DNA of 64,000 bases from a virus: positions 1-64,000 of the IMG/VR virus record IMGVR_UViG_3300037042_003932. One strand, 5' to 3'. Under the pieces are notes generated by a model. That model did no database searches. It had not been told where the DNA came from and saw only the letters and a program-made list of their open reading frames with translations. A program made the translations under genes and the position numbers. This document shows, piece by piece, positions 27,294 through 51,802 of this stretch (position 1 is its first letter; every line of letters starts with the position of its first letter).

Positions 27294-30200
27294 TTCTTCT
27301 CACCAATCGTTACGCGAGTACCTAGGGTAATTTTACTGTCATGATACGCCTTCATCGCATCGGCCTGTGTAGCGAAGTGAACAGGAGCATTATGCTCGTC
27401 CTGTTTGCTCGCGTGTGTCAGTCCCATTGTCGCTTCCTGTCTCGGGAAAACAAAAAGGTCTGACCTCGACTTATCCCCGTACAGCGTGTTCGACAGCGTC
27501 ATCTTTTTGACGTCTTCAATCGCAGCATTCGACACCGGAGTATGAACCATCATCGTGTCACCGTCGTAGTCGGCCCCGTGGGCGACTTCAATGAACGGGT
27601 TCACCCGGATAGTCTGACCGGCTACCGGAACAGGGAATGCCCCCGTGATATTGAAACGATGCAGCGTAGGTGCCCGGTTGAGCATGACGGGACGTTCCTT
27701 TATCTCGCGCTGGAACGCTTCTTTTGCTACCGGGTGTCGAGCCTTAATCATCTCTTGTGCTGTTAACGGGGAATACCCCTGTAACACGAGACGCCGGATC
27801 AAGAATTTCTCATACATCGTCCAGATCATATCTTCCGGAAGACCCACTTCGTCCAACCCCAAGTTGCTATCGGGCACAATGGTTCCGCGTCCCGCGACAT
27901 CCTGGGTCTTCTTCATGAGCTTCGATTGGAAATATCCGAACTTGGGACTCCCAGCTCCTGCGATGTACGTCAAGAACCCTTTGTGCCCTCGAGCTTGGGA
28001 CTTGGTGGTGACTGGGTCGTTCACTCCGTACACCGCACCAACAGCTTGATGAAGCATGGGCCGTAGCTTTGCCTCTTCAAAAGGCATGGTTCCTGCGCTC
28101 TTAACTTCCTTGAACTGGTTGTTCACAAAAAGGAGATCCCGGTAAAGCGGGTTAATGTCTCCATAAATGAGTTCTTGACCGCCCTTACCTGGAATGACAG
28201 GACGTACAGATGGAGGGACAACAGGAATCTTTGAGATAATGTACGCATCTCCTGGGGATAGATTCTGTGACTTCAACGCCCTGACGTACTTGAGCTGTTT
28301 GACAACCCCATCGAGGTCAGCACCCTTGGCCTTCTTACTCTTCTCTTCCAGCTCTTTCTGCTTCTTGTCCAAGTCGATCTTGTTCAACTCAGAACGTAAG
28401 AACCCTGCGCCCTTGTCGTTGATTGTCTCCGTCAATTTCGTTCCAGTCATCCCCAAGAAACGTCGGACCGGCTCTGCGAAGATCGGATTGACGATGGGCT
28501 CCGCGAGCTCGATGTGTGCCCACCGGTCTCCCTTGAGGCCCCCGGTAATGCCTGGGTCAAAAAGACCCCCCTTCTCGGGCTTGAGGTCTTTCGCACGGAC
28601 GAGCTTTGGTTCAAGAATCTCACCAGAGGACATCTTCAGCGTGTCGCGGTCCGTCAACGGGCCGAGAGCGATATTTGAACCGGAACGCGTTACCTTAACT
28701 CCTGCTCCAACAAGCATGTTCAAGAACTTGTCTGACGCGAACGACGTCTTGGGTGGGGGTGTAGGATACCCCATCTGCAGAGCTCGCCAGAACTCATCGT
28801 TCTTCTGACTCTTGAGAGTAGACGCTTCGAGCAGAACATTGCGGGCGTTGTGCCCCACAAGAGCCCCGAACTCCATCATGCCCAACGCTTTGGAGCTCGC
28901 ATCACCACCCTTGGTAGGCTGAAGGTTGGCGTCGTAACTCCCGATGTTTCTAGCACTGTAGTTAACGTCGGTGCTCTTAAACGCCTTGAACAAGTAGCTG
29001 CGCCCGACGAAAACCCCAGGAATAGTTTTGCCGGTGGTCGGGTCAAAAACGGTCTCTTTATCCTTGACGTCATGCTTCTTGAGGAGGTCCTTCACGTACT
29101 GAACGTTGTTCCTTCCAGTGAAGTTCTCAAGTTGAATTGGCTTCCCTAGCTTCTCGGCTACCTTCCCTACTGCTGCTTCTAATATCTGCGCAGGATTGAT
29201 ACGAGAGACAACACCTGCAGACGTCACCAACACGTCGATGGGTTTTCCCGATTCATCTTTGACCATGTGGTCGTCTGGGATTATTTGGGAAACAACACCT
29301 TTGTTTCCGAAATTGCCCATCATCTTGTCGCCAATCACCATTGGTTCCTTAACCTTGACTGTGATTGCAATTCTCTTTGGGGTCTTTACGACGTCAATCA
29401 CTTCCCCGGTGTGGTGGTGGTCCCAAATTTCAGAAGCGTTCCGGAATGGCTTCACCAACGCTTTGTGGAGTCGGCCAAGCATAATGTCATCAGGAGTCAT
29501 TGTGGACTTCCTAAGACCAAAAACCACGGGGTCCCCTGCGTTCAGCTTAGTGCCCTTCTTCACGATGCCCTCTGCATCCACTAGTCCGTATTGGTCTCGC
29601 TTGTACTCGTGCCCGTAGTAGACCTGGTGTTTGTCTTTATCAAACGTCATGTCTACGTCTCTCGAGACGATAATCTTGTACATCTTCTCGGACGTCAGCT
29701 TCTTCGAGGCACCCTCACTGATAACGATTGCGTCGTTAGAGTTGGCACCCTTGTAGGGCATGTAAGCCACCGAGAGGTTCTTACCCAACGCAAGCTGCCC
29801 GTCTTTCGTGTAGTTGGACTCAGCCAACATTTGTCCTGCGGACACATGGTCACCCACACGAACTTTGAGGTCGTGGTGCAAGAAAGACTTCGCCGCTAAC
29901 GGGAAGTTAGTCTCGTAGTGAACCGTAACCTCTCCTTTTCCGTTATCCGGCTTTATGTACAAGTAGTCCTTGTCCACACGACTGATTATCCCGGAAACAG
30001 GCGCTCTTGGGTTTATGGTCTCAGCCATGACTGTGACCATCGGCCTACCTGTTTGCGAGATGGACTGTACGTATGGAACTTCCCGATCCACCAAAGACAA
30101 CGCTTGTGTCTGGTACTTAGACCCCATAATCACACGATTGCCCTGGTTGGACTCGAGGAATGGAATCAGATTGGTGGCAGGGCTATACAGCACCGTGGAG

Positions 30201-31648
30201 TGTGGTACTTGGTACTGAACAGAAGACGCCGGTACTTTTCGAACAACTCCGTTCACCAACGCGTCTACTTGCCCCTCAAGCTTCTGTTGAGGGAACGCAA
30301 CTATGTTGTTCTGGATTTGTCCTGCACGGATGAACGTGAGTTTTTTTCCGTTCTTTACGTCGTACATGGGGACGTAGATATTCCCCTTGCTGTCCTTGTG
30401 TAGCATCATCGCTGCTCTGACATCGACGCCCGCACGGAAAGACTCAGGAGTCCGCATAGGGTCAATAGCCCCGATTTGTGTGGGGTGAACCATACGCGCT
30501 TCCATAGGAATAGCTCGCTCTGAACTGATACCGCCTTCACCAAGAGACGTAATACGCATGGAGGAATCGATTAGCTCCATGGGATTTGTCTGCGTTGGCA
30601 CCGAGACTAGCTGGGACGTGTTGATGAATTTCAACAAACCAGGAGTGAACGGAGCTGACGGTATGGCGTTACGTAGATCCTTTTTCGCCTCAATCTTTAT
30701 CGAGGCTTTACGTGCAATATCTCGCGCATCTAGTTTGATTCTCTCTTTGAAGAAGTCGTCGATACCGTACAGAGACTTGAAGTCCAAGTTGTCTCGGTCA
30801 TCAACTTCGTCGTTGTTCTTAAAAATCTTCAACACCTTCTTGGATGCATCCAAGATGACATGAGGCGTTACGTTTTCGTAAGGCTTGCCTAACGTAACGG
30901 CGTTCACCTCAGGGCTCATTGTAGCCTTGGTGTACCTGTTGAAGATTTCTTTTACTTTTTCTTCAGGCGTCGTGAGCTTCAAAGACTCCCGTCCGTAAAC
31001 CGGGACCACCTTGTTGTACAAACGGTCCACGACGCCGCTTACGTTCTTGGGGGCCATTTGCCTGTTTTTCTCAGCCAGGTCTTTTCCCCAAGCAGAAGAT
31101 ATGTCCTCGTGCGTTAAGCCCGCTCTTGTCAAAATGGGGTAGAGTGGAATCTTGGAAGCGCCGTACTCCAACTGCATCTCACCTTGTTCAGGGTCCATGG
31201 TGACGTTGAAGTTCGCCCCTCCCTGCATGTTGAAGTTAGCTTCAAGAATTCCGTTAGCTCTTTTCCGAGCGTAGACTCCCGGCTTAGGACGCACCATGCT
31301 GGAGACTGAGTACTCGTTGCCACCGACAATCAGGGTGTGCCGAGGGGTGAACCATGGGATTTTCGCTAAGGTAAAGTTTTTTATCTTATCAGTCACTTCC
31401 CCTGTAGCGTTGTCCCGTACCGTGATAGTCCCCTTGATGTGTTCGAACAGCGAATTCCCCTCGAGAATCGCCGCCTTCTGTTCTGTCGATGAGTAATCTT
31501 TACCGTGTACAGTGACGTCGCTAACGTTGATGGTCTTGCTTCTCGATTTAATGGGAAATGATTCCTGAATACCCTCCACGACTTTGTTTCGGATGTGTCC
31601 ACGCTTAACGTCAGCTCCGACAAGGAATGGCTGGATATCAGAAGTCAT
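27290..31648 (-). CDS. Fused RNA polymerase beta and N-terminal beta-prime subunit
   Basis: 1452 residues. Beta landmarks in order: IPWFTPRHTLIVGGNEYSV near 97-115; rifampicin-region equivalent near 344-372; HPTQIGAIDPMRTPES near 388-403; GDKMMGNFGNKG at 773-784; and SARNIGSYDANLQPTKGG near 898-915. Beta-prime begins near 1000 (KPEKGGLFDPGITG), without the usual N-terminal CxxC zinc domain, and continues to LNRAPTLHR at 1323-1331. The active site GADYDGDTM carries D1360, D1362 and D1364, all three Mg-binding Asp. It ends at TLGTRVTIGEKK, exactly where cellular beta-prime continues into the next domain, encoded here two genes downstream. Its place in the virion block suggests a packaged polymerase, which is inference. 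Confidence 0.9.
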   Translation of the reverse strand: MTSDIQPFLVGADVKRGHIRNKVVEGIQESFPIKSRSKTINVSDVTVHGKDYSSTEQKAAILEGNSLFEHIKGTITVRDNATGEVTDKIKNFTLAKIPWFTPRHTLIVGGNEYSVSSMVRPKPGVYARKRANGILEANFNMQGGANFNVTMDPEQGEMQLEYGASKIPLYPILTRAGLTHEDISSAWGKDLAEKNRQMAPKNVSGVVDRLYNKVVPVYGRESLKLTTPEEKVKEIFNRYTKATMSPEVNAVTLGKPYENVTPHVILDASKKVLKIFKNNDEVDDRDNLDFKSLYGIDDFFKERIKLDARDIARKASIKIEAKKDLRNAIPSAPFTPGLLKFINTSQLVSVPTQTNPMELIDSSMRITSLGEGGISSERAIPMEARMVHPTQIGAIDPMRTPESFRAGVDVRAAMMLHKDSKGNIYVPMYDVKNGKKLTFIRAGQIQNNIVAFPQQKLEGQVDALVNGVVRKVPASSVQYQVPHSTVLYSPATNLIPFLESNQGNRVIMGSKYQTQALSLVDREVPYVQSISQTGRPMVTVMAETINPRAPVSGIISRVDKDYLYIKPDNGKGEVTVHYETNFPLAAKSFLHHDLKVRVGDHVSAGQMLAESNYTKDGQLALGKNLSVAYMPYKGANSNDAIVISEGASKKLTSEKMYKIIVSRDVDMTFDKDKHQVYYGHEYKRDQYGLVDAEGIVKKGTKLNAGDPVVFGLRKSTMTPDDIMLGRLHKALVKPFRNASEIWDHHHTGEVIDVVKTPKRIAITVKVKEPMVIGDKMMGNFGNKGVVSQIIPDDHMVKDESGKPIDVLVTSAGVVSRINPAQILEAAVGKVAEKLGKPIQLENFTGRNNVQYVKDLLKKHDVKDKETVFDPTTGKTIPGVFVGRSYLFKAFKSTDVNYSARNIGSYDANLQPTKGGDASSKALGMMEFGALVGHNARNVLLEASTLKSQKNDEFWRALQMGYPTPPPKTSFASDKFLNMLVGAGVKVTRSGSNIALGPLTDRDTLKMSSGEILEPKLVRAKDLKPEKGGLFDPGITGGLKGDRWAHIELAEPIVNPIFAEPVRRFLGMTGTKLTETINDKGAGFLRSELNKIDLDKKQKELEEKSKKAKGADLDGVVKQLKYVRALKSQNLSPGDAYIISKIPVVPPSVRPVIPGKGGQELIYGDINPLYRDLLFVNNQFKEVKSAGTMPFEEAKLRPMLHQAVGAVYGVNDPVTTKSQARGHKGFLTYIAGAGSPKFGYFQSKLMKKTQDVAGRGTIVPDSNLGLDEVGLPEDMIWTMYEKFLIRRLVLQGYSPLTAQEMIKARHPVAKEAFQREIKERPVMLNRAPTLHRFNITGAFPVPVAGQTIRVNPFIEVAHGADYDGDTMMVHTPVSNAAIEDVKKMTLSNTLYGDKSRSDLFVFPRQEATMGLTHASKQDEHNAPVHFATQADAMKAYHDSKITLGTRVTIGEKK

Positions 31649-31779: not shown

Positions 31780-32302
31780 CAGTTCCAGCGGAGCCGCCCG
31801 TGGGCTCCGCACTCTTATTATCGTATTCTTCCGAAAAGACCTTCTTTGGGTTCGGAGGATACACGGTATCCTTTTCTTTTTCTTTTTGCTTCCGCTCGAG
31901 TTCAGCGATGTGTGCTGGGTCAGCAACCATCCACATGATATGCACACACCGAGCGTCACTCTCTCGACGATTAAAGAACTCTTGCTTCTGTAGGAGGGCT
32001 TTTCCGCTCAAGCAGAGGTTGACTACTTTCTCGTACTCCGCGTTCTCGTTGTGGGGACACGTGTAGTCACCTTCTGAAGGAATCAGAACCTCACCTGAGT
32101 TAATATCGTTACTACACCTGGGACACATGTCGTAGGGCTTCCAGATAACGAAAACTCGGGAAGCGTACTGCACACGGATTTGATCGGCTATTTGGTTCGC
32201 TTCTGTCTTTGGTTGAACGAGGTTTCCCCCTTTGTTTCCACCAAAGACATTCGTGAACTCAAACTTCTGCGCTGACTCTACCTGAGACCTAAAGTCATCC
32301 AT
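31769..32302 (-). CDS. Zinc-ribbon protein downstream of the portal gene (177 aa)
   Basis: The start overlaps the portal stop by eight bases. Residues about 58-85 form a zinc ribbon (CPRCSNDINSGEVLIPSEG... with a second CPH). A helical stretch and a Lys/Glu-rich coiled segment follow (LERKQKEKEKD). It probably works with portal or packaging, given coupling to the portal gene, but no family was recognised. It lacks K-x-A repeats. Confidence 0.55.
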   Translation of the reverse strand: MDDFRSQVESAQKFEFTNVFGGNKGGNLVQPKTEANQIADQIRVQYASRVFVIWKPYDMCPRCSNDINSGEVLIPSEGDYTCPHNENAEYEKVVNLCLSGKALLQKQEFFNRRESDARCVHIMWMVADPAHIAELERKQKEKEKDTVYPPNPKKVFSEEYDNKSAEPTGGSAGTASP

Positions 32303-34034
32303 TCATAGTTCCTTGTGCTGGGTCCTGTTGTAGCATCTGGGTATTCTGCAGCTTCAAGCGCTGCACCACGACAGAGTACAATATGAAATCTTCCATTTGC
32401 AACTGGTGCAATCGACTCTTCTTGGCCCCGTACTCCATGCCTGAGAGCTCAGCCACAACCTGATCGGCGTTGGCTATGACCTGCTGCTGGTTATACGAAC
32501 CCGGAGTTGTGTTGGCCTCTTGCTGAGATTGAGCTGCTGCAGCATTTTGCTGCTTCTGCATCTCCATCTGAATCTCATTACTGATACGTGAGCCACGAAG
32601 AGTTTCATTCTTGATACGCTCCTCTTCGCGTTTTGGATCGATTTCAAAAATCTCACACATCGTCGTATCAGACAGCACTTGAGACCCTGTCTGCTTTCCA
32701 GATTGCCACACGTTGTACATGAGTTGCTGTCTCTCAAAATCATCAACCATTCGGAACGGAGTGAGACCCAACTTCACTTTTTCCCAACCCAGGAACTCGG
32801 CGCACTTGTCGTCCATCCACTGCATAAGGTCGACGATGTCAGCGATGTGTGTTGCGAGCTGGTTCTCGATCATGCGCAACGTGGCTTCCATACCTCGACC
32901 AGTAAGACCGCCGTACAAGAACTCCATAGGGATACCGAGAGTTGCGACGATGCTCTTCTCAGCCTCTTGGATTTCACCCAGAGTCAGTAGAGCTCGTCCT
33001 TGCCCACCGAGCTGAACCATACCCACCGGGATAGGCGAGTACATGATATGGAGGGGATCTTTACGGTGTAACCGAATGTTGATGTCGAGTTCGTCGCGCC
33101 ACTTCGACAAGCTAATCTGCTGCACAGGGTCAGCAACCCCAGAAGCCTGAGAGGCGTGGAGAATCCTGAAAGGAACTAGGTAGTCCAACGCGATGGCTTC
33201 GTTAGCCTTACGCAGAATCTGTGTGAAATGGAACCGCTCGAGCGCCGCTAGGATCGGAGGAAGTCCCCACTGCGGATTGATGCCCGCAGGAGCACCCACC
33301 TTCATATGGAAGATTGCGTCACGTGCGAACTTGAAAGGCTTGTGCTCTTTGATTGCCTTCAAGAAGCCAATCGGCATGGTGTCGATGAGCATCTTGTGGC
33401 CTGAGTTCACACGCGAGACAATGGCAGACGGAATCTTGTAGTAGTAAGTTGACTCTCCGGTGAGTGGGTTATGGTCGATGTCGAGGTCCTTGGCGTCCCA
33501 TCGAATGAAATTGATTCCCTTACTCAGCAGGAGCTTCCGGTCCTCGATATTCTCTTCGCCGACTACGGCTCTTTTTTTGCACGAGTTGCATGTGTACGTG
33601 AACTTGAGGTGCGAAACGTCAAATGTGTACGTTGTGTTCTTGATATTCGACAGAGACGAACACGACGGGCACTTAAGGTAACGCACGAATGGTTGATACA
33701 TAGATATGAAAGCGTTACCATAAACGTACTTATCAAGAGAACACTTGATAAGGAATTCACGGACACGCAACGTCTTCTCAAGAAGGTCTTTGTGCTTGGT
33801 CTTGAGATGCTCGTTAACCGTCTCGTAAGTGATCTTCGTGATCGGGTATTCGCCAAACTTACGCAGAGCAGCAAAAATGTGAGGACTTTGGTAGAAGAGA
33901 TACTCACACCAGATAAAGAGCTCTTTTAGCCTCTTGGGCGTGTAGAGCTGCGAATACTGGTAGTACGGATTTGAATGAGTACCATCCATGCCCCCGTGAT
34001 AGGGGTCGAACAAACGCATTGTGTCAGTCGTCAT
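32295..34034 (-). CDS. Portal protein with inserted zinc ribbon
   Basis: 579 residues. The first half has RVREFLIKCSLDKYVYGNAFIS, typical of portal wing/clip regions. GLTGRGMEATLRMIENQL and the following helices match the stem/crown helices of gp20/SPP1-type portals. C122, C125, C149 and C152 (KCPSC...CNSCKK) are a zinc ribbon not present in the classical portals. The C-terminus is a Gln-rich helix. Portal forms the dodecameric DNA gate at one capsid vertex and the docking point for terminase. It begins 29 bases from the divergent helicase gene, leaving almost no room for a promoter. Confidence 0.8.
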   Translation of the reverse strand: MTTDTMRLFDPYHGGMDGTHSNPYYQYSQLYTPKRLKELFIWCEYLFYQSPHIFAALRKFGEYPITKITYETVNEHLKTKHKDLLEKTLRVREFLIKCSLDKYVYGNAFISMYQPFVRYLKCPSCSSLSNIKNTTYTFDVSHLKFTYTCNSCKKRAVVGEENIEDRKLLLSKGINFIRWDAKDLDIDHNPLTGESTYYYKIPSAIVSRVNSGHKMLIDTMPIGFLKAIKEHKPFKFARDAIFHMKVGAPAGINPQWGLPPILAALERFHFTQILRKANEAIALDYLVPFRILHASQASGVADPVQQISLSKWRDELDINIRLHRKDPLHIMYSPIPVGMVQLGGQGRALLTLGEIQEAEKSIVATLGIPMEFLYGGLTGRGMEATLRMIENQLATHIADIVDLMQWMDDKCAEFLGWEKVKLGLTPFRMVDDFERQQLMYNVWQSGKQTGSQVLSDTTMCEIFEIDPKREEERIKNETLRGSRISNEIQMEMQKQQNAAAAQSQQEANTTPGSYNQQQVIANADQVVAELSGMEYGAKKSRLHQLQMEDFILYSVVVQRLKLQNTQMLQQDPAQGTMNG

Positions 34035-34063: not shown

Positions 34064-36205
34064 ATGTGTAACAAAGTCAGACTCGTTAGAATTGGTACGA
34101 CGCCTGTCTTCTTAATTCCTGGAAGCAAAAATGACTCCTGGGTTCATGTGTTCGGGTGTCAGTTTGTCGAGCAACTTCGCGGTTGGGTCTGTCCTGCTTA
34201 CCGCCCATTTCTAGACAATGTAATACGAGATATCAGGACACTCAATGAAAATGTCCTAGATGAGAAAACAATTAGCAACGCGTATGAGCAAGCTCCGACC
34301 AAAGAGGACTGGCTCATCCGTCTATCGGACACGCCACCCCCCGGGAAGATCAAGAGTTACGCGCACCAAATAGAAGGAACAGCTGAACTTCTAGCTAACT
34401 ACAGGTGGTATCTCCGCTGGGAAATGGGGACAGGTAAGACGAAAGTTGCTGTTGACGCCCTCACCTATCTCAAAACCAAAACAATTGTTATCTGCCCTGT
34501 TATCGCAATTAACACATGGCACCGAGAAATAGCCCTTCACTCGAATGGTGAGCTGACGTCAACGGCTATAATAGGCACACCAAAGCAAAAACTGAAAAGG
34601 CTGACCGAAGCAAAAGAATTTGACGTCGTAATTATGTCCTACGACACGGCCCGGATGTACAGCGTCCCTAGCATCTGTTCCGAGGCTCAGAGCTTACGTA
34701 AGAAATCTCAGATGGGCACGACCCGAAGTCACGTGCGGGTACTCGACGCCATCGCTCTTCTTCATTCAAAAAAGGACCAAGAGGAACTCTTAGGGGCGTT
34801 CTATGCTGGGAAGGCTACTGCCGATGACGTTGAGAAAGCAGTGGACCGTCTTAACGGAGGAGTCATTCCTTTTTTGTCTGGTCTAACTTTCGAGACGATA
34901 ATCCTCGACGAGGCCCATCGAGTAAAGAACATACGAAGCCAACGGACCAAAGCTATCAGTGCTCTGTCCGCTCGGGCTTCGCGTAGATACCTCTTGTCTG
35001 GTACGCCCACCGTTGGAGACCCGCGAGACTTCTACACACAACTCCGAGTCCTCTTACCTGCTCTCATGCCCGAAGAGTGGCATAACTTTGTTCCTAAGTT
35101 TTGTGATGTCTCGAAGACCAATAAGCACATAGTTCGTGGTTACAAAAATATGCATGTCATTAACGGGAGAGTTAATTCTGTTTCTAGCGAACGAAGACTT
35201 ACCGAGTGCGTGTCACTGCCTCCTAGAACCGATATAAATGTTCACTATTCTTTAACGGGGAAGCAGCTGATGGATTATAACATCGCAATCCACGAGTGCT
35301 GCATACAGGTTGGCTTAGGGAAAGATTTGAAATTCAAGCATGGAGCTATCCGCTTAACCAAAATAATGCAGATGTGTAGCGGGTTTTACTATTTGCCAAG
35401 AGCAGCAACCGGAAACTATTGCGACGAGTGTGACCACCTGTTTGACTGCGTGTCTAGAAACATCGAACCCGGTACCAATAGATGTCTGAACGCAGAGGCC
35501 AAGATTGTTGATGTGTTCAAGTACAAAGAGAATCCGAAGCTGGAAGCGCTCGAAGACCTTTTGGAAGACATCCTAGAGGATGCAGAGCACAAGGTAATCA
35601 TCTGGGGTAACTACACCACGGAGCTCGATGACATCGAGGAGCTTCTTATCAAAATGGGGCACACGTATATCCGAGTAGACGGCACGAATACGCAGCACAT
35701 AAAGAAACACGAAGAACGATTCCAAACAGACCCAAAATGCCGTGTGTACCTCGGGCAGATACATACGGGAATTGCAGTCACGCTTACGGCAGCTAAGTAC
35801 TCTGTTTACTACAGCCGTGCATGGTCTATGGATGCTTGGGACCAGTCGAGGGGACGGAACTTCCGAATAGGCCAAACGCAAAAGACCATCGTGTACAGGC
35901 TGGTGGGAGTCCAGTCAGTTGAAAAGCAACAGCTCATCGCGTTGGATAATCGCCATGATATCGCTGAGATTTTGACAAAGAACGTAGAGTGCATGCTCTG
36001 TGAACAGTACGAAGACTGTTCGGCTAAAGGGATATCGCCTTGGTGTGAGGGGTGTGTCATGGCGGATAAGATGGAAAAGTACATGACTTGTCCAAAGGTT
36101 ATTCAACCTGGGGTAAATGAAACTCCATTAGCTGAATATCTTGAGGACAAACGTGATGCAGGCTATGGTAAACATGAGGAGCAAGACGATGCAGATAACA
36201 TTTAG
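34064..36205 (+). CDS. SNF2-family DNA helicase/translocase
   Basis: 713 residues with an SF2/SNF2 core: Walker A MGTGKTK at 121-127, DEAH at 282-285, LSGTP at 311-315, and a C-terminal motif region (AWSMDAWDQSRGRNFRIGQ) with the SNF2 Gln-Arg pattern. Between the motor lobes and at the C-terminus are Cys clusters (CDECDHLFDC; CMLCEQYEDC...CEGC) that probably bind zinc. Family proteins translocate on dsDNA and remodel bound proteins. This one likely supports replication, recombination or displacement of host proteins. First gene of the plus-strand metabolic block, with an AGGAA ribosome site. Confidence 0.85.
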   Translation: MCNKVRLVRIGTTPVFLIPGSKNDSWVHVFGCQFVEQLRGWVCPAYRPFLDNVIRDIRTLNENVLDEKTISNAYEQAPTKEDWLIRLSDTPPPGKIKSYAHQIEGTAELLANYRWYLRWEMGTGKTKVAVDALTYLKTKTIVICPVIAINTWHREIALHSNGELTSTAIIGTPKQKLKRLTEAKEFDVVIMSYDTARMYSVPSICSEAQSLRKKSQMGTTRSHVRVLDAIALLHSKKDQEELLGAFYAGKATADDVEKAVDRLNGGVIPFLSGLTFETIILDEAHRVKNIRSQRTKAISALSARASRRYLLSGTPTVGDPRDFYTQLRVLLPALMPEEWHNFVPKFCDVSKTNKHIVRGYKNMHVINGRVNSVSSERRLTECVSLPPRTDINVHYSLTGKQLMDYNIAIHECCIQVGLGKDLKFKHGAIRLTKIMQMCSGFYYLPRAATGNYCDECDHLFDCVSRNIEPGTNRCLNAEAKIVDVFKYKENPKLEALEDLLEDILEDAEHKVIIWGNYTTELDDIEELLIKMGHTYIRVDGTNTQHIKKHEERFQTDPKCRVYLGQIHTGIAVTLTAAKYSVYYSRAWSMDAWDQSRGRNFRIGQTQKTIVYRLVGVQSVEKQQLIALDNRHDIAEILTKNVECMLCEQYEDCSAKGISPWCEGCVMADKMEKYMTCPKVIQPGVNETPLAEYLEDKRDAGYGKHEEQDDADNI

Positions 36206-36626: not shown

Positions 36627-36655
36627 GCTATACGCCGTAAACTCAGGAGGAAAGC

Positions 36656-38727: not shown

Positions 38728-38728
38728 C

Positions 38729-39145: not shown

Positions 39146-39146
39146 C

Positions 39147-39311: not shown

Positions 39312-39538
39312 CACGAACACCTATCCGGAGAAAACGCGTTGACCCTGAGAAGACCATCCAGGCTATACGTGCTCTGTATATGACTGCGTACAACTCTGAG
39401 AAGAGTCTACTCTTGTGCTCGACCGAGCTATTTCATCTTTTGGGCGATATCCTAGAAGGCGTCCCGCCCGAAAGACTCAGCATGATTCATATAGACAAGT
39501 CAGAAGTGCTAGCAGAGTTAGCTGCCGCATCTGAATAA
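39308..39538 (+). CDS. Small helical hypothetical protein (76 aa)
   Basis: The ATGA overlap with the preceding gene fixes the start at 39308. The product is basic at the N-terminus (TRTPIRRKRVDPEK) and helical afterwards (SLLLCSTELFHLLGDIL). No domain recognised. It is translationally coupled in a run ending with the ParB-like gene. Confidence 0.5.
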   Translation: MTRTPIRRKRVDPEKTIQAIRALYMTAYNSEKSLLLCSTELFHLLGDILEGVPPERLSMIHIDKSEVLAELAAASE

Positions 39539-39566
39539 TGTACCCCAACAAAGTAGGAGCAAAGAC

Positions 39567-40574
39567 GTGGCTAAAACTGAATCGACAATCCCCACGGAAT
39601 CCGAGCAAGACGATATCTTGAGCTCTGTCATTCCTGTCGAGGCCGAGGTACAAGCCGAACAGCCCGACGACAAGAAGAAGAAAAAGGGAGCTAAGGTAGA
39701 GATGGCTAGCAGCGGGCTACAGAACACAAAGCTCGATATCAATTTGATTGATCTCCCAGAGCGCTGGAATCGTGACAAAGCTGGAGACCTCAAGAATCTC
39801 ACCCAGTCCATCAAGATAAAGGGACAGCTTGTTCCACTGGCCGTTCGCCCGAACCCTGAAAACCCCAAGAGGTACATCCTCGTTGACGGTCGTCGCCGGT
39901 ACATGTCGATGCTCGATCTCGGGATCAAAGAGGTCAATGTCTCTCTCGTCCTCGACGACAACGACGTAGACGCGTACATGACTTCCATGGCCACCAACCT
40001 GGCTCGCACCGGACACAACTGCGTCGAGATCGCAGAGTCATTCACGTACCTTACCCAGAGCGGGAAGAAGCAAAAAGACATCGCAGCGTCTTGCGGCTTG
40101 AGCGATGCCTACGTGTCGCAGCACCTCGGAATCTTGGATCTCCCCCCGGAAATCCTGAAGCTGGCACGTACCGAGAAGTTGAACTTCGCACACCTCCGCG
40201 TGTTCAAGAGTGTCTTCAACGACGAAGACATGTCTTTCTTCAACAAGCTGACCGACAGGGTTATCACGAATAACCTTCCTCCGGATAAGGCCGATGAGGC
40301 TGTGTCCCGGTACAAAGAGCGCAAGCGTGCCAAGGAAGAGGCAGCGGGTAAGAAGTCCAAGAAGACTGGTCGTCCTGCGAAGAAGGGCAAAGACCCTATG
40401 GACTACGATACCGTCGCTACCTCCATCAAACCGATCCCGAAGAAAGAAATCCTCGAGCTGCTCAAGGAGTATGCTGACAGGTACAAGGGTTCTGGTTCTA
40501 AGACCCGGACTGCGTACTACGAGGGTTTCCTTCACGGCGCAGAGACGGTTGGCGGAATCCGCGAGACAAAGTAA
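39567..40574 (+). CDS. ParB/Spo0J-like DNA-binding protein
   Basis: GTG start after TAGGAGC. Residues about 55-150 are the ParB N-terminal domain (ERWNRD...LTQSIKIKGQLVPLAVRP; VDGRRRYMSML). Residues about 160-230 hold a helix-turn-helix (KKQKDIAASCGLSDAYVSQH). The last 100 are Lys-rich. The classical GERRxRA NTPase box is replaced by VDGRRRYMS, so CTP-clamp activity is uncertain. No partner ParA was seen. In phages such proteins bind DNA in regulation or nucleoid organisation rather than plasmid partition. 335 residues. Confidence 0.75.
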   Translation: MAKTESTIPTESEQDDILSSVIPVEAEVQAEQPDDKKKKKGAKVEMASSGLQNTKLDINLIDLPERWNRDKAGDLKNLTQSIKIKGQLVPLAVRPNPENPKRYILVDGRRRYMSMLDLGIKEVNVSLVLDDNDVDAYMTSMATNLARTGHNCVEIAESFTYLTQSGKKQKDIAASCGLSDAYVSQHLGILDLPPEILKLARTEKLNFAHLRVFKSVFNDEDMSFFNKLTDRVITNNLPPDKADEAVSRYKERKRAKEEAAGKKSKKTGRPAKKGKDPMDYDTVATSIKPIPKKEILELLKEYADRYKGSGSKTRTAYYEGFLHGAETVGGIRETK

Positions 40575-41591
40575 TCATCTTCTGACGAATCCCACCTGTT
40601 CGCTCATATCAAATAATTGACGCCGTAAATTCTTAAGAACAGATACCTTTATCTGTCGAACGCGCTCGACAGTAACTCCCGTAGTAGCTGCAAGCTGCGG
40701 AAGAGTTTTGGGATCTGTTTTCCGGTCGTCAGTGGCTATGTTGTAGTACTGCAAAAGGATGAACCTGTCTCTGGGTCGGATAGGCATAAGGTTTAGGACT
40801 TGACGAAGTAACTCGGCGCTGTCGTTGTTAATAGTCAAATCTTCAATTGTGTCGTCCGACTCAGGACGGTTCATCGCTTCTTCTATAGGGACTACACACG
40901 ACATCGTAGTGATCTCTTCAGCGTTAACCGCGATGAAGTCGTGTAGTCTTTTTCGCGCAGAGGGACACTTGGTTCGTAATGGGTTATCCGTTCGAAGACC
41001 GCAGAAAATACATTCGTACGACCCGAGCTTTTGATTCTTCTTTACGGCTTTTTGTTTGTGCGAAGGTACATGGACAATACCGCTCGCGTGCAATTCATCG
41101 AGCATCTCTTTACGTATCCACCACGATGCGTAGGTTAAGAACCTAGTCGACCGGGTCATGTCAAATTTGTCTAGAGCCAGCAAGAGACCGACGTTTCCTG
41201 CTGATATTAGCTTTTGGATTACTTCTGGTGACTTGGATAGCTTCTTAGCGGTTGTCACTACAAAGCGTAGATTAGTGACGATGAGTTCTTCTCTGGAGGC
41301 CATATCCCGAGTTGAACCGCATAGTGGACAGTAGACAGGAGGGATAAAACAGTCAAAACGTGTGTTACATTCGGTACAAGTAATGGCTTTACCTGTCACA
41401 CGTTTCGGCGTCGGTGTTCCGCATTTCGTGCAGTTATTTCGCTTAACTAAGTGCGGGAGTCGTTTATGGCATTTGGGACAACTCTTATACAAAACTAGAA
41501 GTTCACGTTCACGCTTAGGCGTAAGAACTTTATGTTTACCCACGTCTTCGTAGTAGGTTCTGAATGTTCGACTCTCAAAGAAACTGTCCAT
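40575..41591 (-). CDS. Sigma-70-family factor with inserted zinc ribbons
   Basis: 338 residues. The N-terminus matches region 1.2 (RTYYEDVGKHKVLTPKRERE). Residues 38-91 hold CxxC pairs (CPKC, CTKC, CTEC, CPLC) forming probable zinc ribbons. Region 2 follows (EELIVTNLRFVVTTAKKL; FLTYASWWIRKEML, 100-165). A third ribbon-like cluster (CIFC...C, 194-209) sits in the region 3 area. Region 4 occupies 268-325 (TLPQLAATTGVTVERVRQIK). It should direct a polymerase to promoters, most simply the phage RNAP. It lies on the minus strand with a convergent ParB gene, and its start faces a divergent gene across 89 bases. Confidence 0.8.
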   Translation of the reverse strand: MDSFFESRTFRTYYEDVGKHKVLTPKRERELLVLYKSCPKCHKRLPHLVKRNNCTKCGTPTPKRVTGKAITCTECNTRFDCFIPPVYCPLCGSTRDMASREELIVTNLRFVVTTAKKLSKSPEVIQKLISAGNVGLLLALDKFDMTRSTRFLTYASWWIRKEMLDELHASGIVHVPSHKQKAVKKNQKLGSYECIFCGLRTDNPLRTKCPSARKRLHDFIAVNAEEITTMSCVVPIEEAMNRPESDDTIEDLTINNDSAELLRQVLNLMPIRPRDRFILLQYYNIATDDRKTDPKTLPQLAATTGVTVERVRQIKVSVLKNLRRQLFDMSEQVGFVRR

Positions 41592-41680
41592 GATTTTCTC
41601 CTTAGTGTTTAGTGGTCGAAAGCGGTGGACAACGCAACGTGTGCAAGGTAGGCTTTATGCCTTCTGCAAGGAGAACAACA

Positions 41681-42700
41681 ATGGCAAAACAAAAGACCGT
41701 CTCCCCCAACCCCGAACAGACAGAGGTGAAACCAATGAGCGATGCTCCGACCGAGAATGCTGCAATTGAGAAAAGTCATCCCGCTCCTTCAGCTATGTCC
41801 TTGCTACAAAGTTATACCCATATTCCGGAGTTCGTCGAGCGTTATGGTAAACAACTCGTAAGGATCGAAAAGGAAAACGTCACTGCCGAGCTTATCGACG
41901 AAACGCTCTGGAAGCTTCCCGAAGATATCCAAGATAAGCTGTTCGCCCTCGTGGCCAAAATGAACCCGCAAAAGAAGGGCGTCGTCGCCGCTGGTGCGGT
42001 GACCGAGTTCCTGGAAGCCCGCGTTAACCAGGGAACCGGTAACGACCCTAACCGTCCTGAGGATTCTATCGCAGGACACTTCTACCTCTCCAGCTCTGAA
42101 AAGATGGGGAAAGAGTTCCTCGCTACGCCCATCCTTCTGTGGGAAGGATGCCAGAAGTGGGAGAAGCGGGATGCAAACGACCCGAAGCCTGCCATTCCCG
42201 AGTGCACATCGCATGACCGTATCGTCGGAGACAAGTACGGACACTGCGAAAAGTGCTTATACCTGCCCTGGCGGGACAACAAACCGAATGAGTGTTCCAA
42301 TACCGTAAGCGCAATCCTTCTCACGAAGGACCCCATGAACATCGTCATGATGCGCTTCCAGCGTACGTCTACCCCCGGTGGGACGCAGCTCGTGAAGCTC
42401 GCCCGTCGCGGTAGCGTTCCGTGGGCTCGGTGGTACAAGTTCGCCACGGAGAAACAAGAGAAGGTTGATAAGCGTTGGTACACAATCACGGCAATCCCAG
42501 TCGATGAGAAGGTGGAGCCAAACCTCCAGAAGTTCTGTGATCTGATGTGCACCGTCGCAGAGCGCGATTACCTGTATCCCAAGCTGGCGCGGAACTACGC
42601 ACAGGAACCAGAACCAGCACTCCCCTCGGCAACAACTGGACCAGTGTCTACCGAGATGAGTGAAGCCGACCTGGGCAGTTTCGGCGGGGTAAACGTCTAG
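41681..42700 (+). CDS. Zinc-bearing phage replication protein, possible ssDNA-binding protein
   Basis: ATG 41681 follows AAGGAGAACAACA and is chosen over 41612. The 339-residue protein has a helical N-terminal half, then a Cys/His cluster (CTSHDRIVGDKYGHCEKC...C), then an OB-like beta region (NTVSAILLTKDPMNIVMMRF). Proteins of this layout in large phages lie beside Cas4-like nucleases and polymerases and are thought to bind ssDNA; here a Cas4-like gene is next. The assignment is from architecture and context only. It ends before a strong terminator. Confidence 0.5.
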   Translation: MAKQKTVSPNPEQTEVKPMSDAPTENAAIEKSHPAPSAMSLLQSYTHIPEFVERYGKQLVRIEKENVTAELIDETLWKLPEDIQDKLFALVAKMNPQKKGVVAAGAVTEFLEARVNQGTGNDPNRPEDSIAGHFYLSSSEKMGKEFLATPILLWEGCQKWEKRDANDPKPAIPECTSHDRIVGDKYGHCEKCLYLPWRDNKPNECSNTVSAILLTKDPMNIVMMRFQRTSTPGGTQLVKLARRGSVPWARWYKFATEKQEKVDKRWYTITAIPVDEKVEPNLQKFCDLMCTVAERDYLYPKLARNYAQEPEPALPSATTGPVSTEMSEADLGSFGGVNV

Positions 42701-42715
42701 TGTTCTAAGTTCTGT

Positions 42716-42770
42716 GGGACCCCTCTCTGATACGGCGTAATTGCGTATCAGAGAGGAGGTCTCCTTTTTT
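42716..42770 (+). terminator. Strong rho-independent terminator
   Basis: CCTCTCTGATACG (42722-42734) pairs perfectly with 42744-42756 across a 9-base loop. The stem can extend imperfectly to GGGAC/GTCTCC, followed by TTTTTT. It ends the transcript of the putative ssDNA-binding protein gene and separates it from the nuclease-primase-polymerase genes. This is the clearest terminator in the window. Confidence 0.85.
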
Positions 42771-42790
42771 CATGTGAAAGAGGTACCCTT

Positions 42791-43672
42791 ATGACCTGCA
42801 AATTGAGCCCGTTTCTGTTGGAACACGCTGCATGGTCTTTGAGCAAAGTAGAAACAGTCAAACAATGCCCCCGGAAGTTTTGGTATACGTACATCAACAA
42901 GCCGAACAAAGCTGCTTTAGGTATTGTAGATAGTTCTGAAGCTCGAACAGGTAAGGCTATTCATCGCGTACTCGAACTCATGCTGAAGGGACACCCTTTA
43001 GACTTCGCAATATCTACAGTGATACGCGAAAAACAGTTGCTCACAAAAGAGATCGAAGCAGTAGAAGCGTCGCGTCCTGCTGCTACAAAATTCATAAGAA
43101 CGTTTAACGCGTTCAGGAACTCACATGGAGACCATGACCTCATTGTCGAGGCCCAAGTAGCTGCGGGCTTCAACGGAGAAAAGAAACCATACTTCGAAAA
43201 ACGAGGAGCTCCTAACACACTGTTGTTGCGTGGAATGATCGACGTAGGGTGCATCTTCAAAGATAAACCCACTGCGATGGTTATCGACCACAAAACTGGT
43301 AAGAACAAAGGCATAGCGAATCACGCGCACCAGATGGATTGTTATGCCTTGCTTATCAAGGCGAACTATCCGCACGTTACAAAGATGATTCCAGCGATCC
43401 ATTGGGTTCAAGATCAGCTAGTCGAGACGTGTGACAACATCGACTTAACCAATCTTGACGCCCTCGTTGATAAGGTCGTACAGTTCATGTTGGACGCCAC
43501 CATTGAGGTTGATGGCTCTAACCTTGAAACTACTAAGACTGGAATCCTCTGCAACTGGTGTGACTACTACTCGTTGTGCCCCGCTCACGTTACTGACTCA
43601 CTAGGTGGTGCTCATGGCGAAATCAAAAAAGAGGGACAAACAATCGAAGGACTCGAAGGTCTTAACACGTGA
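42791..43672 (+). CDS. Cas4/RecB-like PD-(D/E)XK exonuclease
   Basis: 293 residues: SLSKVETVKQCPRKFWYTY near 15 (first cluster Cys), GKAIHRVLELML, and the metal site AMVIDHKTGKN (D-x-K near 174). HQMDCYALL follows, with a C-terminal CNWCDYYSLC cluster. The same fold family as 36656-37525 but clearly diverged, so two such nucleases coexist. It overlaps the primase start by 59 bases. A role in DNA-end processing during replication-recombination is expected. Confidence 0.75.
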   Translation: MTCKLSPFLLEHAAWSLSKVETVKQCPRKFWYTYINKPNKAALGIVDSSEARTGKAIHRVLELMLKGHPLDFAISTVIREKQLLTKEIEAVEASRPAATKFIRTFNAFRNSHGDHDLIVEAQVAAGFNGEKKPYFEKRGAPNTLLLRGMIDVGCIFKDKPTAMVIDHKTGKNKGIANHAHQMDCYALLIKANYPHVTKMIPAIHWVQDQLVETCDNIDLTNLDALVDKVVQFMLDATIEVDGSNLETTKTGILCNWCDYYSLCPAHVTDSLGGAHGEIKKEGQTIEGLEGLNT

Positions 43673-46600
43673 ACAATGTGCTAAGATATGGCCTCTAATC
43701 AAAGCAGAAGACTGGGTAAAGTTCGCAAAAGAGGCCGGTAGACCTGATCTCAGATTTACCGCGACGTCCCCAACATCCGTTCTCGGTTTGTGCCCTACAC
43801 CGGCACATGCTGAGACTAATCCGTCATTTACTATCAACGGTACTGACGGAATCTGTGGTTGCTTTGGATGTAAGTGGTCAACGACAAATCCCATAGTCCT
43901 TTACTCCGTAATCACACAGAAGACTATTCCTGAGAGTTTCTCGGACCTGCACGCGAAGTATCGGCTCACTTTCTTACCAAAAGATTACGGTGAACAGTTA
44001 GAAGCACAGCGGCTCAACTCAGCAATGAAGAGAGCCGCTGAAGCTATCTTCCATGATGAGCTTTGCCAAGCGATTGCATGCGATTGCACGGGAGAATACG
44101 AGTACGCTCGGAAGGCTGTGGACTGGCTCATCACGGAGCGCCAGATAAATAAAGATGTCATCCCGTCTCTCCCGATTGGAATCTTTCCAACTATCGCTCA
44201 GCTTAGTAAGAAGTTAACAGCCAGGTTCATACAGAGAGCTGCTCTCGAGAACGAGACTAACCCGTCTACAGTAATAACTACCGAGAAACTAGAAGACCAC
44301 GCAGGAACTGCAGTCACGTATTTCTCTGACTTCTCTCGCGCAGGAGTTAACGACAAGTTCATCGGTGCTCCGGTATTTACGCTGTACAATTCGCCACATA
44401 ACATCGGGCGATTCAAGATGCGTTTACCTGAGAAGGGTCACACGCATGTGATGCCCGATGACCCCTTTGAGGAGATCCCTGGGGTTTATGGGTTAGGGTG
44501 GGACCAATACAAAGCTTGTTGGGACCCAAAGGCAAAAACCCAAGCGGCGTATGCTGTCGAAGGAGAGATGGACTGTTTATCTCTCATGGCGCATATGGCT
44601 GAGACTGGTAACATCTGGGGTCCCGTTGTCAGCTTAGGTGGCACAGGAACAATCGAGGGCTCAGAAGAATCTCTAATACGTAGTCAGGTCACGGACGTCT
44701 ATTTTATCGGAGACGCTCCAAACAAAGGCGGGGACGAGAAGACCAGCTCCAGCGGAGACGTAGCAGTTACTAAGTGGCTATCTGTTTACTCAAAGATTCG
44801 TTCCTACGTTTTTAGCCACGAGGCTTGGGAAAAGTTAGCACCAGCTGATGACCCGGATAACGCAATGCACCTTGATTGCGTAGGACCGGACAAGACGTTT
44901 CTCGAGCTGTATACAAACCGAACGGAGAATTACCAACCCTCAGGGCATTGGCTCTTCGAAAAGGCGTACGACAAGCTCGAGAAATTAGACCCCACAGACT
45001 ACCGAGGACTAACTGAAATAGCAGTTGAGGTCGGTAGGGTACTGCTGAACCTACTAGACAGAGAAGCGTATGTTCAAAGTATCTGTGAGGCATTCCCCAC
45101 ACTAAAGCCTGACCCGTTAAAGCGAGCTCTCACTAGCAGCCTCGTGTCTGAAGAAGCGTTCATCATGCGCTTCAAAGAGGCAATTGAAGCCCTCATGTTC
45201 GTAGTAGGTACTGACAGTGCTAACGCTGATCGGAGGTTACTGTGTGTCGGTCGACAGAAAAATACAGTCTACTCGTTCAAGTTGGACAGCCCCACTTCTG
45301 CAGTAAAAGAACTCGCTACTATCTCGGGTGGTATCGCTAGGTTCATTGACGACCACGTTGGTTGGCCTTCCTTCGTACCAAACCCAAGCACCAAAGAAGG
45401 TGATGGGTGTATGGAGTCCATAGATAAGACGCTGAGATTCTATGCTAACGAGGCCGTTATGCGTGCTGCAGTAGGTGTTCCTGATCTCAAAGACCATGAC
45501 TTATTACGGCAGGGGTATCACTGTATAAGAGACTCATACGGGAATGTGAAAGGGGAGTACGTTGTTGACGGTGGAAGTATTCATAAGATCGTATCTAGGG
45601 ATCATAGCGGGGCACACTGGAACCTGCTAGATGGTCCACGAGATGAAAACATCATATTCGATACGGGGTACACGCACAGAACAATCGAGGAGCCATGGTA
45701 CCCTGGTGGCTTGGACGTTGACACGCTGGAGAAGGGTAACGACGTAGACCTATTAAGGCTGTATAACGACCTCGTAGCAGTTTTCACAGACGGTTTCTTC
45801 TTTAAGAATCACGACGTCGTTCCGAAAATGTTGGGAGCTATGCTCATGGTGCTAGCTGTCAACAACTGCTTCCCTCGACAAATCATGGCGTCAGTCACAG
45901 GTGAGACAAGTTCTGGGAAATCTTCTTTCTTATCTACGTTAAGCAATATAGGTGGCGCTAAATCCATGAGGCTCCTTCTTTGCTCAGTGGGATTCGACGG
46001 ATTCTCCGAAGCAGGTATCAGTGCTCATATCGACAACTCACGAAAGGCTCTGTGCCTAGACGAGGCTGAGTCTGATGAAGGTACTCGTAGGTCTGAAGCT
46101 GTTGGTATGATCAATGAGTTGTTCCGGAGTTGCGTGTCTGGTGAGGGTGCGCGTATCCGTTCTTCGAATAACGGCACTTCAGACGTGAGTATACGTAAGA
46201 TATTTTGTCCGGTGATTTACAGCGGAATTAGTGGGGTGCACAAGGCTCAAGACATGAATCGTATGATCATGATTGAGACCAAAAGAGTCGAGGGCCGCGA
46301 TAATGTGAAGAACATTATCCATGCCAAATATGGTGAAGATTTTGCTCCAGATATCGCGAAGAGACTTGCTGTTGGGATGTACCGTCACGTTCCAGCCTTA
46401 ATGGAGAGCTACGCCAAGATCGAGCGGTTATACCCCACGTTCCACACATTCGTAGGAACCAAGATAGAGTATAGATACGCCTCGGGCCTGTTTGGTATGT
46501 TAGCGGTCCTAGACGTAATCGGCCTCAATTGGAAAGAGTTCTTAACTGATTTCGTGACGTCTAATACCGAGGCTATCGACCGTGCTACCAAGTACTCAGA

Positions 46601-47192
46601 GTCTAACTCTACCTTAACGGCTATGATGCACAACCCAGTCATACGTGTTCCATCCGGGGACAAAGATATGCCGCTACTTTTCAGGTCGATTGCACAGCTT
46701 ATGGTCAATCCAGGACAGAGGCATTATATCAACGAATCCTCTGTGGGTATTTTCTTAGACGAAGAGCGACAACTTCTGCTTGTGCTACTTGACCAAGTTA
46801 TCAAACGGTTGCTCCCGTACCAAGAAAAGTTAACAGCTAGCACCCTGCGTCAAACACTGACACGCGGTAACAACACCCTGTCAGATCAACGCGTAATCGA
46901 ATCCCAAATACTTGAGACCAGCAGACAGTACTTAGGTAATGGAATCACGACGCATGACGTTGTCGTCTTCGAGGCTGGCATGTGGCTCAGTAGAGCAAAA
47001 AGTAACGAAAACAATGGAAAAGGAATTGTTACTCCTCAAGCACTAACCAATCAAAAAGAAATGGCGGTTGGCGATGACAGACCAACAGACACAGGACCCA
47101 CCTCCGAATCCACCCCCGGACCCGAGTCCAAAAAAGACGAGGAAGAAGTCATCGAAACGATCAGCTACGGACCAGGAGAAACTAACTTCTAA
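43614..47192 (+). CDS. Primase-helicase (CHC2 zinc, Toprim, AAA-type motor)
   Basis: ATG 43614 is preferred over GTG 43605. The 1192-residue protein begins with a CHC2-like zinc domain (LCPTPAHAETNPSF...CGCFGC, about 59-87). A Toprim primase core follows (AYAVEGEMDCLSL with the Glu, then IGDAPNKGGD). The C-terminal half has a P-loop (GETSSGKSS near 765) and Walker B (LCLDEAESDEG), an AAA/SF3-like motor. Such fusions unwind and prime lagging-strand synthesis. It lies immediately upstream of, and overlaps, the DNA polymerase gene, so it probably forms the replisome core with it. Confidence 0.8.
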   Translation: MAKSKKRDKQSKDSKVLTREQCAKIWPLIKAEDWVKFAKEAGRPDLRFTATSPTSVLGLCPTPAHAETNPSFTINGTDGICGCFGCKWSTTNPIVLYSVITQKTIPESFSDLHAKYRLTFLPKDYGEQLEAQRLNSAMKRAAEAIFHDELCQAIACDCTGEYEYARKAVDWLITERQINKDVIPSLPIGIFPTIAQLSKKLTARFIQRAALENETNPSTVITTEKLEDHAGTAVTYFSDFSRAGVNDKFIGAPVFTLYNSPHNIGRFKMRLPEKGHTHVMPDDPFEEIPGVYGLGWDQYKACWDPKAKTQAAYAVEGEMDCLSLMAHMAETGNIWGPVVSLGGTGTIEGSEESLIRSQVTDVYFIGDAPNKGGDEKTSSSGDVAVTKWLSVYSKIRSYVFSHEAWEKLAPADDPDNAMHLDCVGPDKTFLELYTNRTENYQPSGHWLFEKAYDKLEKLDPTDYRGLTEIAVEVGRVLLNLLDREAYVQSICEAFPTLKPDPLKRALTSSLVSEEAFIMRFKEAIEALMFVVGTDSANADRRLLCVGRQKNTVYSFKLDSPTSAVKELATISGGIARFIDDHVGWPSFVPNPSTKEGDGCMESIDKTLRFYANEAVMRAAVGVPDLKDHDLLRQGYHCIRDSYGNVKGEYVVDGGSIHKIVSRDHSGAHWNLLDGPRDENIIFDTGYTHRTIEEPWYPGGLDVDTLEKGNDVDLLRLYNDLVAVFTDGFFFKNHDVVPKMLGAMLMVLAVNNCFPRQIMASVTGETSSGKSSFLSTLSNIGGAKSMRLLLCSVGFDGFSEAGISAHIDNSRKALCLDEAESDEGTRRSEAVGMINELFRSCVSGEGARIRSSNNGTSDVSIRKIFCPVIYSGISGVHKAQDMNRMIMIETKRVEGRDNVKNIIHAKYGEDFAPDIAKRLAVGMYRHVPALMESYAKIERLYPTFHTFVGTKIEYRYASGLFGMLAVLDVIGLNWKEFLTDFVTSNTEAIDRATKYSESNSTLTAMMHNPVIRVPSGDKDMPLLFRSIAQLMVNPGQRHYINESSVGIFLDEERQLLLVLLDQVIKRLLPYQEKLTASTLRQTLTRGNNTLSDQRVIESQILETSRQYLGNGITTHDVVVFEAGMWLSRAKSNENNGKGIVTPQALTNQKEMAVGDDRPTDTGPTSESTPGPESKKDEEEVIETISYGPGETNF

Positions 47193-51785: not shown

Positions 51786-51802
51786 ACTGCTAAACATAGG
51801 AA

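Follow-up and report, generated by a model that had tools for sequence, protein, structure and literature searches.

The window analysed here, a stretch of 64,000 nucleotides, corresponds to positions 1 to 64,000 of record IMGVR_UViG_3300037042_003932, which measures 143,878 bases as a whole and is possibly incomplete. One of its genes encodes a sigma-70-type protein, P0001, in a frame that begins with ATG and is preceded by a ribosome-binding-like AAGGAG (Table 1). Pfam Sigma70_r2 (PF04542) matches P0001 at residues 103–167 (1.3e-12, 47.8 bits, cut-off 24) and Sigma70_r4 (PF04545) at residues 273–323 (3.4e-7, 30.1 bits, cut-off 24.1). The PHROG comparison returned PHROG 351, 'RNA polymerase sigma factor' (2.9e-29), and the nearest solved structures are SigA, SigB, RpoD and RpoS.

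Table 1. Features of the window and, in the last line, the second sigma encoded elsewhere in the record
Feature	Position	Strand	Basis
RNAP β′ C-terminal half (P0004), 601 aa	24037..25842	-	
LigD-like primase-polymerase/phosphoesterase protein (P0003), between RNAP genes	25842..27293	-	
RNAP β fused to β′ N-terminal half (P0002), 1452 aa, ADYDGD catalytic motif	27290..31648	-	
β′ coiled coil of P0002, sigma region 2 docking site; V for E. coli R275	28019..28162	-	
Presumed β′ place of bacterial N-terminal zinc-binding domain; Cys-free here	28499..28567	-	
Portal-like protein (P0007), matches annotated Arash portal, upstream of RNAP	32295..34034	-	
DNA helicase, start of replication block	34064..36205	+	
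ParB-like protein, tail-to-tail with sigma	39567..40574	+	
Sigma-70 factor with zinc ribbons (P0001), 338 aa	40575..41591	-	ORF, Pfam, PHROG, solved relatives
Region 4 helix-turn-helix, residues 273–323	40623..40775	-	Pfam Sigma70_r4
Middle CxxC..C..H finger, residues 194–217, behind region 3.0	40941..41012	-	
Region 2, residues 99–170; A131 at E407 position of E. coli sigma70	41082..41297	-	Sigma70_r2
Tandem double zinc ribbon, residues 38–91	41319..41480	-	8 invariant Cys, AF2 pLDDT
Region 1.2, residues 8–36	41484..41570	-	alignment, AF2/VIA superposition on E. coli sigma70
Element TTGCGTTGTCCAC (TTGCGTTGTCYAC), upstream of sigma; kept in close class A relatives	41625..41637	-	
Conserved neighbour, function not assigned, head-to-head with sigma	41681..42700	+	
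Exonuclease, PHROG 69	42791..43672	+	
Protein matching DNA primase	43605..47192	+	
P0005, second sigma-70-like protein, tail module, outside window	record 76326-77027 (L066:12326-13027)	-	Sigma70_r3

Architecture of P0001 and its locus

In the AF2 model of P0001 (35 rows), pLDDT is 94–97 across residues 21–100, ribbons included. Regions 1.2 and 2 together (112 residues) superpose on E. coli sigma70 (7n4e_F) with an rmsd of 2.2 Å and a Z score of 15.0; this is a domain-level value, quoted instead of the whole-chain rmsd, which is high in many fold comparisons (about 20 Å), perhaps owing to moving domains. Judged by its domains and fold, P0001 is a true sigma-70-type initiation factor.

The four N-terminal CxxC pairs (C38/C41, C54/C57, C72/C75 and C88/C91) are packed into 54 residues directly after region 1.2. 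Their spacing is C38-x2-C41-x12-C54-x2-C57-x14-C72-x2-C75-x12-C88-x2-C91, after which region 2.1 opens in its usual way with SREELIVTNLRFVV. The double ribbon thus occupies the place where E. coli sigma70 has its non-conserved region. The third set, C194/C197/C209/H217, is located between regions 2 and 4, behind the region 3.0 stretch HVPSHKQK. The original prediction had read regions 1.2, 2 and 4 in this protein, with four CxxC pairs separating 1.2 from 2 and a further CxxC...C between regions 2 and 4; the Pfam matches and the alignment bear out this layout in both parts.

The Cys pattern of P0001 is far beyond chance. None of the eight N-terminal Cys varies in any of the 20 distinct double-ribbon sequences (classes A and B below, window included), and P46 is the only other invariant residue in columns 38–91; the invariance of the eight Cys argues for metal binding. 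C194 and C197 of the middle finger are kept in 17/17 class A sequences and absent from 3/3 class B sequences, and its third and fourth ligands vary more in position and kind. Zinc-ribbon families of Pfam match P0001 only below their cut-offs. The pattern suggests that two tandem Cys4 zinc ribbons, predicted to bind metal, are inserted between regions 1.2 and 2.1.

A mixture of sigma and TFB/TFE features had also been considered for this protein. In TFB/TFE-like factors, an N-terminal ribbon precedes cyclin or winged-helix domains. The ribbons of P0001 are insertions in an ordinary sigma fold, and among its relatives they occur at two sites or are missing altogether; the Pfam scan of P0001 listed no TFB or TFE family, and the matches listed in PDB fold comparisons are all sigma entries. 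These comparisons do not support a mixed factor.

The gene order around the sigma is kept among relatives: exonuclease, conserved neighbour, opposite-strand sigma, ParB-like gene, exonuclease and helicase. The sigma adjoins an opposite-strand ParB-like gene in 16 of the 19 relatives scanned (classes A–E), the three exceptions being L058, in which the sigma was not called, and L043 and L060, in which the neighbour was not recognised; neighbours were called by longest-ORF rules, and some of them are spurious ORFs. The sigma gene had been described as the only minus-strand gene within the plus-strand replication block. This holds for family-supported genes within 34064–50148, where the other minus-strand ORFs are of 42–119 aa and mostly lie over large plus-strand genes, but not beyond that stretch, where minus-strand genes occur at 50145–51821, 53040–54745 and 59665–61730. 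Further along, 57116–58285 matches PHROG 'polymerase' (1.2e-33) and 'reverse transcriptase' (4.1e-12), and an HNH-like gene is found near it at 54827–56464.

The intergenic regions of the window were inspected by eye for promoters. The element upstream of the sigma gene has a single exact copy in the window, and a search allowing up to 3 mismatches gave 40 matches there against 31.5 expected, a count reached by 8 of 100 shuffles; it was rejected as a genome-wide promoter motif for the window on this comparison. The element is possibly the promoter or operator of the sigma gene itself.

Ribbon classes among the relatives

Scans of viral contigs for relatives of the sigma yielded 7 loci and then 53, and 35 proteins were aligned. 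The architecture recurs in other phages, the double ribbon being present in 20 distinct sequences when the window is included. Class A (the window, L012–L024, L032, L033 and, found later, L178 and L179) combines the double ribbon with the middle finger, and class B (L025–L031) has the double ribbon and no middle finger. Class C (L034–L043) has a single ribbon at the same N-terminal place, and class D (L045–L047, L049, L050, L060 and L061) a single ribbon between regions 2.2 and 2.3, before TTRFLTYAAWW. Class E (L044, L048 and L051–L058) is ribbonless, and L059 and L062–L064 are ordinary sigmas.

Sigmas without ribbons are found both at the same locus, as class E, and among more distant proteins; by this comparison, ribbons are not needed in general by the sigmas of this group. 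The sigma occupies the same locus whether it carries two ribbons, one or none, so that a single inherited sigma has acquired or shed them, at two separate places. The presence of any ribbon requires at least three changes on the RNAP tree and at least two on the sigma tree, and the class D ribbon site requires a separate change of its own.

The same data bear on whether the Cys clusters could sense metal or redox state within the protein and thereby switch the sigma on or off, as the C-terminal clusters of CorE, CorE2 and OrbS do. Metal-responsive Cys clusters do exist in sigmas, as passages of two papers describe (PMC9023288, PMC8999054). In P0001, however, regular CxxC-x12-CxxC ribbons are built into the sigma body instead of being clustered at the C-terminus, and some relatives have a ribbonless sigma at this locus, which makes a sensor highly improbable.

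A helicase encoded elsewhere in the record (112475-114814; L068:8475-10814, plus strand; PHROG 2488, Helicase_C_2) begins with a zinc ribbon that shares 56% identity with ribbon 1 of P0001 across 25 residues.

The phage RNA polymerase and its contact with sigma

The window also encodes a multisubunit RNAP. P0002 matches PHROG RNAP β families as well as solved β chains (5.5e-60) and β′ chains (3.7e-46). A tblastn search with P0002 and P0004 found a single RNAP set in the 143,878-base record, from which a very divergent set or one in the missing ends could have escaped. The order portal, small ORF and RNAP is common to the window and the phages Arash and D69. The phosphoesterase match of P0003 lies below its cut-off. 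In several related records the β/β′N match is broken in open frame, near P0002 residue 777 (G002, G010, G013, G015, G016, G018, G020 and G029) and, in the same manner, near residue 1365, right behind ADYDGD (G002, G004, G007, G008, G010 and G029). These breaks resemble what inteins would do; another in-frame insert, long in class C, lies near residue 571.

The bacterial β′ N-terminal zinc-binding domain has a presumptive place in P0002, set by its layout in bacteria. An alignment of the window with 20 of 28 RNAP loci (the other 8 were missed by the motif search) contains no Cys pair at this place in any of the 21 sequences, class E included. The absence would fit an arrangement in which the sigma ribbons replace, in trans, the zinc domain lost from phage β′. 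In E. coli, the sigma70 non-conserved region contacts the β′ N-terminus, and the ribbons are inserted at just this region. However, class E RNAPs are also without the domain and their sigmas are ribbonless, so that replacement in trans is improbable. A transfer of the zinc module from β′ to sigma is likewise weakened, class E having neither, and is unsupported because the β′ domain is absent whether or not the sigma carries ribbons.

The occurrence of the two genes was compared from both sides. RNAP was present in 36 of the 50 sigma-bearing records searched, a set outside which L053, L056 and L064 fell; the 14 misses comprise 11 class A–E records (15–113 kb) and 3 ordinary sigmas. The RNAP-profile scan gave 173 places, from which 80 loci were kept, 22 of them in records already known through the sigma and 17 in records shorter than 12 kb. 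Among the 41 records reached through RNAP, 23 contain the sigma, and among the 21 with a length of 40 kb or more the count is 17 (two of them weakly); the sigma was not detected in the RNAP records G053, G077, G083 and G084 (47–138 kb). Sigma and RNAP distances agree with a Mantel r of 0.93 over 51 records that carry both genes, the window among them, the best of 2000 permutations reaching 0.151; the G086 and G087 pairs, which have weak sigmas, and some further two-gene records were left out of this set. Classes A+B (14), C (8) and D (5) form clades in both the sigma and the RNAP tree, with support of 0.988–1.0. This shows that sigma and RNAP are stably co-inherited. Because the Mantel comparison covers sigma and RNAP only, the agreement speaks to inheritance and not to contact; it would be seen between any pair of core genes that share a lineage.

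The residues at the docking site were also compared. E407 of E. coli sigma and R275 of β′ belong to the sigma2.2/coiled-coil contact, according to part of PMC8321222. At the E407 position, the 63 distinct sigmas of the group (two of which, L199 and L200, are weak matches) have A in 53, N in 5, Q in 2, E in 2 and S in 1, E being kept in L188 and L198 alone. The Arash and D69 sigmas also have A there, and the ordinary sigmas L059, L062 and L063 from the same scan keep E407. In 14 other sigmas from phage records the residue is E in 9, D, M, Q, L and V in one each, and A in none. These controls first numbered 16, Arash and D69, which both encode RNAP, having been moved out after the fact; the absence of RNAP from the 14 records rests on the best 30 of 51 RNAP-matching records, and several of the 14 sigmas resemble bacterial genes of host or contaminant origin and hence are weaker phage controls. 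E407A was rejected as a perfectly specific mark, as 10 of the 63 sigmas differ.

On the RNAP side, the coiled-coil stretch of P0002 aligns with E. coli β′ 261–510. None of the 105 readable RNAP loci has R at β′ 275, and it is likewise not R in Arash or D69. Both sides of the contact are therefore changed, which fits a sigma tuned to an altered core, but one ancestral change could explain it. The E407A substitution is also found in Hodgkinia, bacteria that rely on an RNAP of their own, as a passage in PMC8321222 states.

The original prediction held that the sigma may be dedicated to the phage RNAP. The presence of such an enzyme in the window, the co-occurrence and agreeing distances of the two genes, the kept coiled coil and the changed contact all speak for this enzyme, which on these comparisons is quite likely the partner of P0001. 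The support for dedication is indirect, and the host RNAP keeps a share of the probability (see below).

A probable virion sigma, the proposed switch and known systems

The second sigma-70-like protein, P0005, matches Sigma70_r3 above its cut-off (27.4 bits against 25.3) and solved SigA chains weakly (5.7e-4); Sigma70_r3 was found in 24/24 members of its family at E values of 0.01 or better. For a modelled family member (mean pLDDT 79.1), sigma entries in Foldseek are among the matches listed (best E 9e-8), and residues 3–92 superpose on SigA domain 2 at 1.8 Å (4x8k_A, Z 11.9). P0005 is present in 22 of the 27 RNAP- or sigma-bearing records searched. A search of 50,697 phage records found it in four, Arash and the Vibrio phages D69, D148 and D181, and the same four phages head the RNAP list, with about 36% identity over 93–98% of P0002. 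The 16 records reached through P0005 (one of which, G009, was known before) contain RNAP in 11 and the sigma in 12, the sigma being present in 11/11 of those with RNAP. One 138-kb record, G084 (L160), has RNAP and P0005; a replication-locus sigma was not detected in it.

The Salmonella phage Arash has the portal, the RNAP, a P0005 orthologue (gp10) and a replication-locus sigma (gp196), which is located between exonuclease and helicase and runs against the genes on either side. The sigma of Vibrio phage D69 also lies between exonuclease and helicase, on the same strand as both, and the two sigmas are without CxxC. In the published Arash particle proteome (PMC10585845), β (Gp206) ranks first with 3516 spectra, β′ (Gp216) has 1210, and Gp10 is represented by 24 unique peptides and 467 spectra; Gp196 is not among the 116 particle proteins, an absence that comes from a single data set and concerns a ribbonless orthologue. 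Its authors suggest early transcription or carry-over, and their paper names the RNAP and the virion sigma, with Gp196 not discussed in the parts covered (PMC10585845).

The finding that Arash particles hold β, β′ and Gp10 but not Gp196 leads to a model with a packaged RNAP and a virion sigma, followed by a new sigma. In it P0001, the sigma-70-type factor of an RNAP-encoding phage, would extend sigma2 by its ribbons, with the packaged RNAP and virion sigma acting early and the zinc-ribbon sigma later; we consider this reasonably probable. Region 2 of P0001 would dock on the phage β′ coiled coil and region 4 on the flap, as in bacteria, and the ribbons may lengthen sigma2 as a rigid arm, giving it one more contact with the phage core or with promoter DNA. 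The RNAP would be packaged with P0005, which would serve early promoters. Once the phage has entered, the zinc-ribbon sigma would be expressed from a promoter of its own within the replication block, and could then redirect the same RNAP to later promoters. Because relatives share the gene, P0001 probably directs the viral enzyme to its start sites. The more specific proposal, that a single packaged core is served by two phage sigma-70s, the virion sigma early and the new ribbon sigma switching the core later, is put forward tentatively.

Alternatively, P0001, produced during infection, could appropriate the host RNAP for phage middle or late promoters, as T4 gp55 and the SPO1 sigma factors do, leaving the phage RNAP to work with P0005 only. 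Regions 2 and 4 are indeed recognisable bacterial sigma domains, Arash virions contain the RNAP but not the orthologue of P0001 (PMC10585845, in part), and the sigmas of RNAP-lacking jumbo phages are thought, in sections of two reviews, to act on host RNAP (PMC7598289, PMC13282480). However, sigma presence tracks the phage RNAP, and the E407 position is not E in 61 of 63 group sigmas, whereas 3/3 ordinary sigmas and 9/14 other phage-record sigmas (some bacterial-looking) keep E. Appropriation of the host enzyme is rather unlikely in the light of these data.

If the model of a packaged RNAP with an early virion sigma and a later ribbon sigma is true, the viral RNAP itself would undergo sigma switching, in a system built like a minimal bacterium. 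Zinc ribbons would then be an evolvable sigma add-on, acquired in several sub-lineages as core- or DNA-contact modules. The system bears on sigma–RNAP co-evolution outside cells and on exchangeable sigmas for phage core RNAPs. Its sigma-70 carries ribbons at novel positions, and Arash is a cultivable relative for reconstituting promoter selection by a multisubunit RNAP.

The architecture of P0001 is real and conserved, belongs to a phage lineage with its own RNAP, and is not described in the literature searched. That no bacterial sigma-70 has this layout, as first supposed, agrees with searches of the literature and of structures; bacterial and archaeal genomes were scanned with two peptide patterns only, which gave one weak locus. 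The open-licence literature on phage and metal-binding sigmas and on RNAP phages yielded no zinc-ribbon sigma of the P0001 layout. Group 1/2 sigma-70s (RpoD, SigA and RpoS) have regions 1.2, 2 and 4 in common with P0001, which differs from them in the two ribbons between 1.2 and 2.1, the third finger past region 3.0, the A in place of E407 and the presence of an RNAP in the same phage genome. CorE, CorE2, OrbS and ECF52 are known as sigmas with metal-binding Cys or with a zinc-finger domain, and P0001 is predicted to resemble them in this respect. Their Cys clusters are C-terminal in CorE, CorE2 and OrbS, with an additional linker CXC in CorE, and others have fused anti-sigma domains, as described in portions of PMC9023288 and PMC8999054.

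AR9 gp226 and phiKZ gp68 are promoter-specificity factors of phage multisubunit RNAPs, a role that P0001 may share, and are held to be remote sigma homologues in the text available from PMC9209446 and PMC7618050. No sigma sequence similarity is detectable in gp226, whereas P0001 is recognised by Sigma70_r2 and Sigma70_r4. Phages of the phiKZ type (Chimalliviridae) have two RNAP sets, virion and non-virion; one set was found in the 143,878-base, possibly incomplete, record, where a very divergent second set could have escaped the search. Arash, D69, D148 and D181 have an orthologous RNAP and a P0005 homologue, the replication-locus sigma being seen in Arash and D69.

The mReC phages have in common with this record a caudovirus-like genome and β and β′ related to cellular RNAP, and their description does not use the words sigma or zinc in its main text (Weinheimer and Aylward, 2020; PMC7481178, in part). 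Besides the RNAP, the caudovirus marks of this record are a terminase and the portal-like protein. The mReC major capsid protein family PF07068 matched 0/16 records, and the controls also matched nowhere; the mReC terminase family PF03237 matched 6/16 records, 5 of them over the cut-off and none of them this one. Only 17 of 31 mReC TerL proteins had a Pfam hit, according to the same partial source (PMC7481178).

Reviews of jumbo phages describe a different distribution of these genes. The RNAP-encoding phages, group 1 of one review, are said to be without a sigma factor in the portion concerned (PMC7824862), and recognisable sigmas appear in extracts from two others as a trait of RNAP-less jumbo phages (PMC7598289, PMC13282480). 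These statements concern phages above 200 kb; the present lineage, with records of up to 198 kb, has both the sigma and the RNAP.
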